A DNA stretch of 34,411 bases from Sulfuricurvum sp. (GTDB lineage: Bacteria > Campylobacterota > Campylobacteria > Campylobacterales > Sulfurimonadaceae): contig JAABPY010000067.1 of assembly GCA_011391735.1 (NCBI GenBank), positions 1-34,411 of the forward strand. The letters are read 5' to 3'. The notes beneath the pieces are model-generated. The model did not search any database. It was not told where the DNA came from and was given only the letters and a program-made list of their open reading frames with translations. Positions 1,713 through 6,751 of this stretch are shown one piece after another (the stretch's first letter is position 1; each line of letters begins with the position of its first letter). A program made the translations under genes and the position numbers.

Positions 1713-1791
1713 TTTTTATCCCTTTTTTTGGGTCTGATCCCATTATTATTTTATCACGGACAATATCTAACAATTTCTTTTTAATCTCCAT
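1690..1791 (-). pseudogene. Putative start of an integron integrase (intI) remnant
   Basis: A 33-codon frame starts at ATG 1789-1791 with a GAGAGGTG ribosome site 6 bases upstream. Its first 15 residues (MEIKKKLLDIVRDKI) resemble the N-terminus of integron-type tyrosine recombinases, where a KLLDxVRDKIR-like segment is followed by a KHYSxRTE helix. After that the sequence departs abruptly (IMGSDPKKG) at the GGGTCTGATCCC motif and ends in the 5' part of the PemK-like gene. It points away from the cassette at 2078, the normal orientation of intI relative to attI and cassettes. Only a short match supports it, so the identification rests largely on context. Confidence 0.45.
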
Positions 1792-2058
1792 AATTCACAC
1801 CTCTCGCTTAAGGGACATCATGTCCTTTTAATGGGTTATTTGACAAATAACGGAACACTTTGTCCAAATAACAGCTACTTTCATGCTAAATGGACACTCT
1901 TTTCTTTAAGAATAATAATGTAAATGATGAAAAAACATCGGAAAAATGACAATTTGACCTATAATTGCTTGAATTGATGCTTATAAATGGACAGTTTGCA
2001 TGTTCCTTTAATAATTACTATTCAGTGTTTTTGTGTTACAGTGTTCCTTGAATAAATA
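1792..2058. promoter_or_regulatory. attI-like intergenic region with repeats
   Basis: This 267-bp gap contains no credible gene. It carries several related motifs: a palindrome GGACAT-C-ATGTCC (1813-1825), two copies of AAATGGACA (1888-1896 and 1985-1993), and two near-identical direct repeats, GTTCCTTTAATAA (2002-2014) and GTTCCTTGAATAA (2043-2055). In integrons the attI site lies here, between divergent intI and the first cassette, and has direct repeats bound by the integrase. The layout fits, but the function of these repeats is inferred. Confidence 0.45.
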
Positions 2059-2059
2059 G

Positions 2060-2971
2060 TTATGAGAAGGGAGCGTCATGAGTATTAAGCAACAAGTCGA
2101 AGATGCTATTTTTCTAGCTAAGAATGAAAGGCACTTAGGTGCGCTTACTAATTTGATGCTCGCCGTCGCTGCGTCATCCAGAAAAACATTTCCAAAAGGT
2201 AAAGCTAAATCATTGAAAGACCCAACAAAGAATATGGGAGACGGGGAAGCGTTCAGTTTGTTTGTTGGTGGCCGAATCAGAAAAATTCTCTTTGGCGATT
2301 ATGGAGGGCCAGACACTGGTAATAGCGGTATTAGTGTTAACTTTAAAGGTAAGCAGCATGACGTTGCATATATCCTCTACAAATACTATCGGTGTGAACT
2401 CGTACATGAAGGTGAGCTACCTGAAGATATTGAGTTCAGCGCTCCCAGCGAAAACCAAAACATGGGAATTAATAATGGTGGCGTAGGCGTATCAATTGGG
2501 TGCGGTAATGCGATGGTTCTTGATTATGGGTGGATAGATCTTTTAGTTAACGCAGTTGTTTACGCAAGGTGTAATGGCAAAGTTTTCGGTATTGATCACA
2601 TTGAATTGGTTGCGGTTGAAGGAGTGAGCGAAAAAGAGCATTGCGAATCAATGGTGGAGGCTTATGGCATTACTCCTGGGCGATATCAAATATTAAAAGA
2701 AGCAACTAAACATATAACACCAGACTGTGTTGTTAAAGATAGTGATGAAGTGTTGGTTAAGAAATTTAGCGATCTTGTTTCAAAGAACGTTATAAGTGGC
2801 GGTGCAATAACTGGACTTTCTAGTCATGATTTGTCAGATCGAGAGGGCAAACTCTTACCAAAAGGCCTAGAGATTCTTAAAGAAATTGGAGCTGTGTATC
2901 AAATCGTTGCAGCATAATCTCATAACAAAGCATTGCACCGGACTCGCTGCGCTCGCACGGTGAATGCGGCG
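2060..2971 (+). mobile_element. Integron gene cassette (one ORF plus attC)
   Basis: The unit runs from a GTTATGA recombination core (2059-2065) to a GTTATGC core (2971-2977). It contains one ORF with 12 bp of leader-side slack to its ribosome site and ends in an attC hairpin 4 bp past the stop codon. This compact, promoterless layout is that of an integron cassette of about 0.9 kb. The boundaries follow the known cut between G and TT in the core. Confidence 0.7.
2078..2917 (+). CDS. Cassette-borne hypothetical protein, 279 aa
   Basis: I do not recognise a characterised family. The protein is soluble, without signal peptide or membrane segment. A segment around residue 105 reads LYKYYRCELVHEGELP, an R-x4-H pattern of the kind seen in HEPN-fold RNases, and the helical N-terminal half would be compatible with such a fold; this is only suggestive. 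A glycine-rich stretch (MGINNGGVGVSIGCG) follows. The C-terminal third is helical and charged. The start is ATG 2078 after GAAGGGAG. The gene sits alone between an attI-like site and attC, and its somewhat higher GC than its AT-rich surroundings fits horizontal origin. Cassette genes of this kind often act in defence or stress, but nothing here proves it. Confidence 0.85.
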   Translation: MSIKQQVEDAIFLAKNERHLGALTNLMLAVAASSRKTFPKGKAKSLKDPTKNMGDGEAFSLFVGGRIRKILFGDYGGPDTGNSGISVNFKGKQHDVAYILYKYYRCELVHEGELPEDIEFSAPSENQNMGINNGGVGVSIGCGNAMVLDYGWIDLLVNAVVYARCNGKVFGIDHIELVAVEGVSEKEHCESMVEAYGITPGRYQILKEATKHITPDCVVKDSDEVLVKKFSDLVSKNVISGGAITGLSSHDLSDREGKLLPKGLEILKEIGAVYQIVAA

Positions 2972-2977
2972 TTATGC
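2921..2977 (+). repeat. attC recombination site
   Basis: The sequence folds as an integron attC site. Outer boxes CATAAC (2921-2926) and GTTATG (2971-2976) pair; AAA faces GGC as an unpaired central spacer; GCATT (2930-2934) pairs with AATGC (2963-2967); G2935 is an extrahelical base; and CACCG (2936-2940) pairs with CGGTG (2958-2962). The remaining 17 bases (2941-2957) form the variable tip. The extrahelical base is the feature by which the integrase chooses the strand. The site begins 3 bp after the cassette stop codon. Confidence 0.8.
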
Positions 2978-3015
2978 TACAAATGGAAGGCTTGAAGAAA
3001 AAGGGAGAACTGTCG

Positions 3016-3111
3016 ATGTATGAAATAGCTGAACGCTTTGAGATGGAAGGGAGGGGACTTTTACTAAATAGGGTTCTGCCCCCATATTTTAGCAGTTTAT
3101 TTTTCGGGTAG
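3016..3111 (+). CDS. Possible short or truncated ORF (31 aa) after attC
   Basis: An ATG at 3016 follows GGGAGA by about 7-9 bases and opens a 31-codon frame (MYEIAERFEMEGRG, then a hydrophobic end). The same frame is open back to an ATG in the attC core at 2974, which would give 45 residues. No family is recognised. It could be the beginning of a second, truncated cassette gene, or chance. Confidence 0.2.
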   Translation: MYEIAERFEMEGRGLLLNRVLPPYFSSLFFG

Positions 3112-3144
3112 AATCGTAGACGAACTTAGAAAGTTTAAAAGGAG
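3109..3144 (+). promoter_or_regulatory. Candidate -10 box and strong ribosome site upstream of the DUF1016 gene
   Basis: TAGAAT (3109-3114) resembles a -10 element, and AAAAGGAG (3137-3144) is a near-perfect ribosome site. The latter drives a 15-codon ORF (3153-3200) whose end overlaps the ATG of the nuclease gene at 3188, so the small ORF may be a coupled leader or the remnant start of another gene. Confidence 0.35.
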
Positions 3145-3187
3145 TATTCCCAATGAGCAATCAAGAATTCAGTAAAAGGGCTTGTTT

Positions 3188-4234
3188 ATGGATAAAATAA
3201 AAGAGTTGCATCATACAGTTAACTATAATTCCTTTTTGGTAGAGATCAAAAATCAAATAAAAATTTCGCAGCAAAAAGCATTTAGTGCTATCAATCAAGA
3301 GATGATAATGCTTTATTTTCATATTGGGGCTATGATTGAACAAAGACAAAAAGAGCTTGGTTGGGGTGCAAAGGTTATCGATAAATTGAGTCAAGATATT
3401 TTACGTGAGTTTCCGAATATGAGTGGATTTTCAACGAGAAATATTAAACTTATGGTGCAGTTTTACAAAGAATATGCCGATGATGAAATTGGGCAACTAT
3501 CGGTTGCACAAATTCCTTGGACTCATAATATTATCTTGATTCAAAAAATAAAAGATAAAGAATTACGATATTGGTATATACAAAAAATCCTTGAAAATGG
3601 CTGGAGCAGGGACGTTTTGACGCTTATGATTAAAAGTGAAGTTCATAAACGAGAAGGAAGTCTCGTCTCTAATTTTAAAAATATTTTGCCTCCGCTTGAG
3701 AGTGATTTGGTGCAGCAATCTTTTAAAGATCCGTATCGATTTGATTTTTTGACCATCACGGAGCCATTTAGAGAAAAAGAGCTTGAAAATAGTCTCATAA
3801 AACACATGGAGAAATTTTTAATCGAGCTTGGAAGCGGATTTGCATTTGTAGGACGACAATATAAGCTTGAAGTCGGTGATGATGACTTTTATATCGATCT
3901 ACTTTTTTATCATTTAAAGCTTCGATGTTTTGTCGTCGTTGAGCTTAAAAAAGGGAAATTTAAACCTGAATATTCGGGACAAGTGAATTTTTATTGCAGT
4001 GCTGTTGATAGTGTTTTAGCTCAAAAAGAGGATAAACCCACTATTGGGCTAATCCTTTGCCAAGAAAAAAATGAGATCGTTGCAGAGTATTCGTTGCGAA
4101 ATATGTCTCAACCTATTGGAATATCAGAATATCAACTGACTGAAATTTTACCAAAAGAGTTCGAGTCTTGTTTACCGACGATAGAGATGATAGAAAATGA
4201 ACTAAAGAGTAATTTGGAAGAATTGCTAATTTAA
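3188..4234 (+). CDS. DUF1016/YhcG-type PD-(D/E)xK nuclease domain protein
   Basis: The protein has 348 residues and matches the layout of the YhcG family: an N-terminal helical DUF1016 domain (about 1-150, including YFHIGAMIEQRQKELGWG and FSTRNIKLMVQFY) and a C-terminal nuclease domain. The PD-(D/E)xK core is visible as DDFYIDLLFYH with the catalytic Asp, then VVVELKKG with the Glu-x-Lys pair, followed by GQVNFYCSAVD. Family members are commonly found near restriction-modification and other defence genes; the substrate is not settled. The start is taken at ATG 3188 (AAAAGGG 7 bases upstream) rather than the TTG two codons earlier. It is the last gene of the accessory island before leuS. Confidence 0.88.
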   Translation: MDKIKELHHTVNYNSFLVEIKNQIKISQQKAFSAINQEMIMLYFHIGAMIEQRQKELGWGAKVIDKLSQDILREFPNMSGFSTRNIKLMVQFYKEYADDEIGQLSVAQIPWTHNIILIQKIKDKELRYWYIQKILENGWSRDVLTLMIKSEVHKREGSLVSNFKNILPPLESDLVQQSFKDPYRFDFLTITEPFREKELENSLIKHMEKFLIELGSGFAFVGRQYKLEVGDDDFYIDLLFYHLKLRCFVVVELKKGKFKPEYSGQVNFYCSAVDSVLAQKEDKPTIGLILCQEKNEIVAEYSLRNMSQPIGISEYQLTEILPKEFESCLPTIEMIENELKSNLEELLI

Positions 4235-4257
4235 TAGGGCGTTTATCGTAAATGAGA

Positions 4258-4263
4258 TAAAAT
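4258..4263 (+). promoter_or_regulatory. Candidate -10 box for leuS
   Basis: TAAAAT lies 38 bases upstream of the leuS ATG, in the 66-bp gap after the nuclease gene. Campylobacterota sigma-70 promoters often lack a clear -35 box, and none is seen. The assignment is by position and motif only. Confidence 0.35.
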
Positions 4264-4300
4264 CGCCTACAACTATATACATATTTTAGGGCAACAAAAA

Positions 4301-6751
4301 ATGAATTATTCCCCCTCGACTATCGAAGCAAAATGGCAAAAATTTTGGGCTGACAATAAAAGTTTTGAGCCTAGTGAAGATTTTACCAAAGAAAAAAAAT
4401 ACATTCTCAGTATGTTCCCTTTCCCAAGCGGACGGCTGCATATGGGGCATGTGAGAAACTACACCCTTAGCGATACATTCGCCCGTTATTACCGTCAACA
4501 AGGTTTTAATGTTCTTCACCCTATTGGTTTTGACAGTTTTGGGATGCCTGCGGAAAATGCGGCGATTAAAAACGGGTCTCATCCTAAGGGGTGGACGTAC
4601 GATAATATTGATTATATGAAAAAAGAGTTCGCCTCTTTGGGTTTTTCTTTTTCTAAAGAACGAGAATTGGCAACGAGTGATGAACTGTATACGAAGTTTG
4701 AGCAGGGCTTTATTATTGATATGTATGAAAAAGGGCTTCTTTATCGCAAAAAAGGGATGCTCAACTGGTGTCCCCATGATTTGACCGTTTTGGCGAATGA
4801 GCAAGTGGTTGACGGATGTTGCTGGAGATGCGATACCCCCATTGTCAAAAAAGATATGAATCAGTATTATTTTAAGATTACCCAATATGCGGATGAGCTT
4901 TTGGACGATTTGCATAAACTTGAGGGGGGTTGGCCGAAACAAGTTTTGACGATGCAGGAAAACTGGATCGGAAAATCGAACGGTTTGGCGTTTGATCTGT
5001 TTTTTGATGAAGCTAGCAAGGTAAAATTAGCCTCAAATTTTGATCGTTTTGATGTCTTTACCACGCGCCCTGATACGATTTACGGTGTTTCCTATACGGC
5101 GTTAGCCCCTGAACATCCCATTGTCTCATATATGATAGAGAACGCTTTATTGAGCGATGACGTTGTTTCTCAAATCAAAGAGATGAAAAATAGCTCTTCC
5201 ATTGATCGCCAAAAAGAAAAAAGTGGCGTTCCTCTGGGGCTTGATGTGATCCATCCCCTCACAGGTGAGAAGGTTCCTGTGTGGGTCGCTAATTTCGTTT
5301 TGATGGATTACGGCAGTGGTGCGGTGATGGCGGTTCCTGCGCATGATGATCGAGATTTTGATTTCGCTCAAAAGTATGATTTGCCGATTCATGCCGTTAT
5401 TAAACCCTTGGACGGTGAATTGGATTTAAGCAAAGCGTACACAGAGGTAGGGGTTCTTTTTAATTCACAACAATTCGATGGGATCAACTCAAAAGAGGCA
5501 CAATCTAAAGTAATAGAGTATTTTGAGTCTGAAAAAATTGGGCAAAAAACGACGAATTATAAACTCAAAGATTGGGGGGTTTCCCGTCAACGCTATTGGG
5601 GTGCTCCACTTCCTTTCGTCCATTGTGATGATTGTGGACTAGTGATGGAGAAAAAAGAGAATCTTCCTGTCGCTCTTCCTCATGATATTGAGATTACGGG
5701 AGAGGGAAATCCTCTCGAAAAACATCCGACATGGAAACATTGTCAATGTCCACAATGTGGAAAAGATGCGATTCGTGAGACCGATACGATGGATACGTTC
5801 GTTGAGTCAAGCTGGTATTTCCTACGCTTTTGTGCATCGCCTGAAAACTGGGAGAGTGAAGCGTTTTCGAGTGAACAAATCAAATACTGGATGGGTGTTG
5901 ACCATTACATCGGCGGGATTGAACACGCTATTTTGCATCTGCTCTACGCACGATTTTTTACCAAAGTATTTCGAGATTTGGGATACATCGAGTTTGATGA
6001 ACCGTTTGAAAAACTGTTAACGCAGGGGATGGTTCTCAAAGATGGGGCAAAAATGTCCAAATCCAAAGGCAATACCGTTGATCCTGATGCCATAATCCTA
6101 AAATACGGTGCGGATACAGCACGTCTCTTTATCCTCTTCGCTGCTCCTCCTACCCAAGAACTAGAATGGAATGACAGCGCGGTTGAGGGGGCGTTTCGTT
6201 TTCTCAAGCGGTTTGCCGATAGAGCGCAGTATGTGAACAAAAGTAATACCATTGTAAAAATAAACCACGCCTCCCTTTCTAAAGAGGAAAAGCATGCCCG
6301 TAAAAAAGTGTACGAAGCACTTAAACGTGCTCAAGACGTGTATGTTGAGCGTTATACCTTTAATACAATGATCGCAGGGTGTATGGAAGCGATGAATGCG
6401 TTGGGTGAGCAAAACAATCGTGAGGTGTGGAGTGAAGGATATTGGATTCTAGCTTCAATTTTAGAGCCTATTATTCCCCATTTGTGTTGGGAACTCTCCT
6501 ATACCCTTTTTGGAGGGAAAAATTTGGGTAGCCAAGAGGTATGTGACGAAGTTTTTGACGTGGATGCACTCACTCTTGGGGTTTCGGTTAATGGAAAAAA
6601 TCGTGCTACTATCGAGGTAGGAGTTAGTGAGACGAACGAAGCGATTATTGAAATAGCCAAAGCGTCGGTTGAGAAATGGATAGAGGGGAAAGAGATTGTA
6701 AAAGCAATTGTTGTCCCGAACAAATTGGTTAACTTGGTTATCAAGGGATAA
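4301..6751 (+). CDS. leuS: Leucyl-tRNA synthetase
   Basis: This cytosolic class Ia synthetase charges tRNA-Leu. Its 816 residues are the expected length for a bacterial enzyme. The HIGH motif appears as HMGH (residues 47-50), preceded by MFPFPSGRL, which is typical of LeuRS. The CP1 editing domain follows ([12 protein letters not shown], then [15 protein letters not shown] with the conserved Asp of the editing site). KMSKS is at 584-588. A zinc-binding set of CxxC pairs occurs in the insert region (CDDCG, CPQCG). The C-terminal anticodon-binding and tail domains are complete. The start is ATG 4301. It heads a run with lptE, a GGDEF gene and folC with gaps of 2-3 bp or overlaps, almost certainly one operon. 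The leuS-lptE-folC order is also found in H. pylori. Confidence 0.98.

Follow-up and report, generated by a model that had tools for sequence, protein, structure and literature searches.

A gene cassette with a gammaproteobacterial-type attC site in a probable integron remnant of Sulfuricurvum

How did a lone gene cassette come to lie in a Sulfuricurvum genome in which we find no integron integrase? The cassette is in a 34,411-nt stretch of DNA (the window) from Sulfuricurvum sp., on contig JAABPY010000067.1 of assembly GCA_011391735.1, which is a draft (229 contigs, 85% complete). A sequence-only reading had identified a hairpin at 2921-2977 as an attC recombination site. We propose that it is very probably the attC of the single cassette in a decayed chromosomal integron of the Campylobacterales type, whose integrase gene (intI) was later destroyed (Table 1). 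Integrons are known in Campylobacterota; among the papers searched, the only one that names integrons and Sulfuricurvum together is a drinking-water resistance study.

When we read the sequence directly, all of the coordinates proposed for the hairpin were correct. The outer boxes, CATAAC (2921-2926) and GTTATG (from 2971 onward), are complementary and contain the AAC/GTT core, and the inner stem has 10 base pairs with one bulged G at 2935. The AAA/GGC spacer, described as unpaired, is mostly so in the fold. The tip was described as variable, and indeed it is 17 nt long here versus 7 nt in two Pseudoalteromonas sites that have the same arms (L101 and L102). The hairpin does begin three bases past a stop codon (TAA at 2915-2917, then TCT, then CATAAC). 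Folding the bottom strand as single-stranded DNA, which had been suggested as a check, gives the same hairpin (-12.3 kcal/mol, z = -2.1). The top strand also folds into this hairpin (-11.8 kcal/mol, z = -1.35), and with these z scores the energy by itself is only weakly unusual relative to shuffled sequence.

We also searched both strands of the window with an attC grammar (6-bp AAC/GTT outer arms, spacers of 1-6 nt, an inner stem of 10 or more perfect pairs, and one bulge in the 5' arm). The hairpin at 2921-2977 was the single match, and dinucleotide shuffles gave any match in 2 of 60 cases. We then built a covariance model from 16 Campylobacterales attC sites of complete integrons and of one sister locus, leaving the window out; its sole match in the window is likewise 2920-2977 (21.8 bits, E = 0.0068 for 66.7 kb). 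In the alignment of these 16 sites, pairing is backed by two-sided changes in 9 pairs. Furthermore, an extrahelical G nine bases past the AAC is invariant (16/16), and the window's site has it at the same distance. On the bottom strand of attC sites, the extrahelical base is usually a G; unlike this, the window's is a C. It is the one extrahelical base of the site and lies in the correct (R''-L'') arm, with no second in the 10-bp stem; characterised attC sites have two or three (PMC2727003). The bottom strand (...CATAAC GCC) has the G after the AAC of R' that is named as a feature in the same study (PMC2727003).

By sequence comparison, homology lifts the hairpin well beyond chance. The arms CATAACAAAGCATTGCA...TGAATGCGGCGTT are common to the window's attC and to sites from Pseudoalteromonas xiamenensis (L101) and P. 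sp. HL-AS1 (L102). Between the window and P. xiamenensis, the arms are identical except for a compensatory change from CACCG/CGGTG to CAGCG/CGCTG. More broadly, Pseudoalteromonas sites (L101, L102, and L016 from P. neustonica) differ from the window's in the length and sequence of the tip, and one pair of the L stem shows a compensatory change. A nucleotide search of plasmids with the attC gave weak E-values, and two of the matches, once read, were true Pseudoalteromonas attC sites. In contrast, the local Campylobacterales type is aaCATAGtAGCC...ACCGTTA, whereas the window's attC is of the gammaproteobacterial type (GGCGTT side, CGGAC tip).

The gene that precedes the hairpin has relatives in cassettes elsewhere. 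A protein from P. haloplanktis (L015) is 82% identical, and the similarity of its DNA to the window extends from beside the attI crossover to within R'' and no further. (In L015, at 4848-5242, the attC of the cassette is broken after CATAAT by an apparent group II intron remnant, with a maturase C-terminus on the minus strand.) A relative from P. neustonica (L016, 66% identical) is flanked by attC sites within an array, and a truncated intI is next to that array. A third, on a viral contig with a P2-like prophage (L162, 77% identical), has the same attC directly past its stop codon; it adjoins an Ogr-like regulator and is close to the portal gene. Because of its structure, the match to an independent covariance model, the arm identity with Pseudoalteromonas sites, and these cassette-borne relatives of the gene, 2920-2977 is an attC site, as the sequence-only reading had held. 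Part of what was to refute that reading was that other cassettes in the genome had no comparable site. Literally, this is the case, as the covariance model finds no second attC in the assembly at E <= 0.05, a genome-wide count that depends on the filters of the search tool. It is not a valid refutation, because the array is reduced to one cassette and sister genomes do hold comparable sites.

Table 1. Features of the cassette locus in the window, with attI-like units from other Sulfuricurvum loci
Feature	Coordinates	Strand	Description or evidence
intI relic, codons 1-15 (MEIKKKLLDIVRDKI)	1747..1791	-	14/15 residues identical to L034 IntI
intI-attI intergenic region and attI side to crossover	1792..2059	+	alignment to L035, ending at attI core
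13-bp palindrome GGACATCATGTCC	1813..1825		just upstream of intI start; second copy GAACACTTTGTCC at 1853-1865
Candidate Pc -10 box, TACAGT	2037..2042	+	position matches conserved TATAAT-like boxes upstream of attI core in other Campylobacterales integrons
attI core GAATAAATAGTT	2050..2061	+	crossover between G2059 and T2060
Gene cassette, 912 bp	2060..2971	+	G^TT at each end; P. haloplanktis DNA similarity limited to 2058-2925
Ribosome-binding-like sequence GAAGGGAG	2066..2073	+	direct reading
Cassette gene, 279 aa, orphan	2078..2917	+	ORF, profile searches, alignments
attC site	2920..2977	+	read from sequence, ssDNA folding, covariance model, grammar search, homology
attC R''	2920-2926		TCATAAC; paired with R' 2971-2977 (GTTATGC), 6/7 pairs
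attC spacers	2927-2929, 2968-2970		AAA, GGC; mostly unpaired in ssDNA fold
attC L''	2930-2940		GCATT-[G2935]-CACCG; extrahelical base G2935
attC variable tip	2941-2957		17 nt
attC L'	2958-2967		CGGTGAATGC
Right flank, chromosomal	2977..4600	+	95% identity to L017 10114-11730 (sister G019); right end is the end of the query used
YhcG-type nuclease gene	3182-4234		in right flank, as is start of leuS; Pfam
attI-like units in other loci	L153 5591-5506; L154 13344-13202; L155 14044-13915; L156 8240-8098; L158 17572-17430; L161 17614-17487; and others

The left side of the cassette, which was absent from the sequence-only reading, contains attI and a truncated intI. We compared it with complete Campylobacterales integrons (L031, L034, L035, L038, and L045). 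Positions 1748-2061 align to the start of intI and the attI of L035 (67% over 318 columns, E = 7e-15), and the attI core matches L031 at 23/23 positions. In 20 loci with an intI, the cassette boundary has this core or one nearly identical to it; in the window the core occurs once, versus 0.01 occurrences expected. On the minus strand, 1791-1747 keeps the first 15 residues of IntI, so the integrase is truncated. The IntI N-terminus of L034 is MEVKKKLLDIVRDKI, and KKKLLDVVRDKI in L026 matches the relic at 92%. Past residue 15, the frame diverges into IMGSDPKKG... and then stops; the alignment of the window's DNA to intI begins at 1748. Because the DNA on the left is co-linear with complete integrons and includes the N-terminus of intI, the window contains the remnant of a complete integron.

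The intergenic DNA between intI and attI has candidate regulatory sites. From its position, TACAGT is a candidate for the -10 box of the cassette promoter Pc. The 13-bp palindrome just upstream of the intI start is a candidate operator: its motif, GRACANNNTGTYC, occurs 7 times in 8.4 kb of intergenic DNA on the intI side of complete integrons versus 6 times in 173 kb elsewhere, which is about 24-fold enrichment. The palindrome is repeated in the intI-attI intergenic regions of L023, L025, L032, L035, L045, and L046. In other integrons its outer bases vary (for example, ACACACAAAGTGTGT), which suggests that the specificity of such an operator may be drifting. Further to the left are a broken PemK/MazF-like gene (1284-1784), which neighbours the intI relic, and a ParE/ribbon-helix-helix pair (491-977), which adjoins an IS transposase fragment at the end of the contig.

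If the locus is a decayed integron, then recombination between attI and attC, mediated by IntI, would have placed the cassette in the attI of an integron in an ancestor of this Sulfuricurvum, with the folded bottom strand of attC cut at the R' box (G^TT). A later deletion or rearrangement would have destroyed intI, leaving about the first 15 codons. The cassette would now be stranded, and its expression, if any, would come from a promoter on the attI side. Without intI, the cassette stays where it is until an integrase comes from another source. The attC is the substrate that such an IntI would fold and cut, and it may still be able to recombine.

We surveyed IntI with TIGR02249. As a positive control, a protein exceeds the cut-off in 43 of the 299 genomes sampled from the order, while at E <= 1e-30 we found IntI in none of the 41 Sulfuricurvum genomes. 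The window's genome has no match over the cut-off for an intact intI; since the assembly is 85% complete and in 229 contigs, an intI could still lie elsewhere in the genome. The tyrosine recombinases of this genome were considered and rejected as IntI (best E = 1e-15, 58 bits versus a cut-off of 265), because the matching is confined to general integrase parts.

Several Sulfuricurvum genomes do contain an attI-like unit of about 140 bp that ends in GAATAAATAGTTA, with as many as about nine matches per genome. We counted 20 occurrences of the 13-bp core, in 11 of the 41 genomes, versus one for the reversed pattern, and none of the 20 core-bearing loci that we examined has an IntI fragment within 1.5 kb. 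The units have sharp left borders near GTTA and are followed by varied cassettes and attC sites; at six loci, an R1-type attC in the same orientation lies 270-3540 bp downstream of the unit. At one of these units, in L153, an AriAB-type (PARIS-type) gene (3874-5469, E = 1e-152) comes directly after the unit and before the attC. The units may represent several decayed integrons, or they may have moved as a piece. It is conceivable, but rather unlikely, that Sulfuricurvum keeps integrase-less attI platforms, on which an incoming recombinase, or one that has escaped recognition, might act in trans, and that the window's locus is an older, Sulfurimonas-like one. These scattered units are more unusual than the window's locus and are a lead worth following.

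A different history would have IntI, acting in trans, insert the cassette at some ordinary GTT site of the chromosome, so that there never was an integron here. Such off-target insertion is among the proposed origins of CALIN elements, clusters of attC sites that lack an integrase (PMC8618304), and it would account for a single attC in an assembly in which we found no integrase gene. However, an attI can be recognised at the left border together with a remnant of intI, and for about 315 bp this DNA is co-linear with complete integrons. Moreover, different cassettes occupy this very position in a sister genome, so we consider this history highly improbable. In the sister (G019, locus L017), 89 bp of the same attI is present at 94% identity and the right flank at 95%, and between these shared flanks are two cassettes other than the window's. 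Where intI would be expected, G019 has mazEF genes. Both lineages have thus lost intI; the left breakpoint is not the same in the two, and their cassettes differ as well. One of the sister's cassettes carries a PD-T7-5 anti-phage gene (L017 8804-9997, PADLOC E = 1.8e-133), and the cassette before it encodes a 219-amino-acid protein that begins MSCYMCNKEKVSVEHAPPKSFFP. The right flank also includes a repeat of about 50 bp (window 3003-3055) that recurs at other places in G019, G027, and G032, at 80-94% identity.

Because the genome is a draft in 229 contigs and the cassette gene is nearest to Pseudoalteromonas, one might instead suspect that gammaproteobacterial integron DNA was wrongly joined to a Sulfuricurvum contig. 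We give this very little credence: both flanks are from Campylobacterales, one of them being 95% identical to G019; the joins coincide with the two recombination points; and the G+C content of the cassette gene (0.41) matches that of the contig (0.40). Last, the hairpin folds and lies three bases past a stop codon, as a transcription terminator or another RNA hairpin might, but it has no T run past the stem, such a role leaves the spacer, the AAC/GTT boxes, and the cassette borders unexplained, and the covariance and homology matches to attC refute it as the sole role.

The decayed integron thus remains our preferred explanation, and it can be compared with known elements. With the sedentary chromosomal integrons of Campylobacterales it shares the attI core, the layout of the intI-attI intergenic region, the N-terminus of intI, and an attC-bounded cassette. 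Unlike complete ones, it has about 15 codons of intI (residues 1-15) beside its attI, an array of one cassette, and an attC of the gammaproteobacterial type. Like CALIN elements (PMC8618304, PMC9024848), it has an attC-bounded cassette and no integrase gene that we could find. It differs from them in having one attC, where IntegronFinder 2.0 by default requires two, and in keeping attI and the start of intI. A decayed integron with one foreign cassette is a known and ordinary kind of element, and it is the history of this one that is informative. Deletion of intI has been proposed as one way in which CALIN elements originate (PMC8618304). Because a locus of about 1.2 kb retains the start of intI, attI, and a foreign cassette, it provides direct evidence that this integrase-less cassette arose by such a route, the decay of a complete integron. 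It also suggests that a cassette passed from Gammaproteobacteria to Campylobacterota together with its own attC of a foreign type. The donor of both was probably an Alteromonadales-like gammaproteobacterium, perhaps a marine one similar to Pseudoalteromonas, with the direction read from few relatives.

What might the cassette encode? Among 397 sampled genomes of the phylum, the protein has no relatives besides the window's own copy, and it has no match in Pfam, NCBIfam, PADLOC, or PHROGs. An R105-x4-H110 motif is invariant in every aligned relative and lies at the end of a predicted helix (96-108); in a relative on a Cupriavidus plasmid, it reads RNGLLH. The motif recalls HEPN ribonucleases, which have R-x4-6-H at the end of a helix, and the neighbours of the Cupriavidus relative include one gene with a HEPN domain and another whose annotation is putative phage abortive infection protein. 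Structures predicted with 3 and then 6 relatives (pLDDT of 51 and then 76) gave no meaningful match to PDB or viral folds, and the profiles of Pfam, NCBIfam, and PADLOC did not indicate a HEPN domain either. Since the motif and the Cupriavidus neighbours are suggestive and the fold searches did not confirm a HEPN ribonuclease, a role for the protein in phage defence is plausible and a reasonable guess.

In P2-like phages of E. coli, a defence hotspot is flanked by gpA and the portal gene (PMC9122126). The relative in L162, with the same attC near the portal gene, resembles this arrangement on the portal side. Together, the PD-T7-5 gene in the sister's cassette and the phage-borne copy near the portal gene fit the idea that integron cassettes are a store of phage defences. 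In L162 itself (3001-3901), the cassette and its attC near the portal gene of the P2-like prophage are an instance of a phage carrying an integron cassette.
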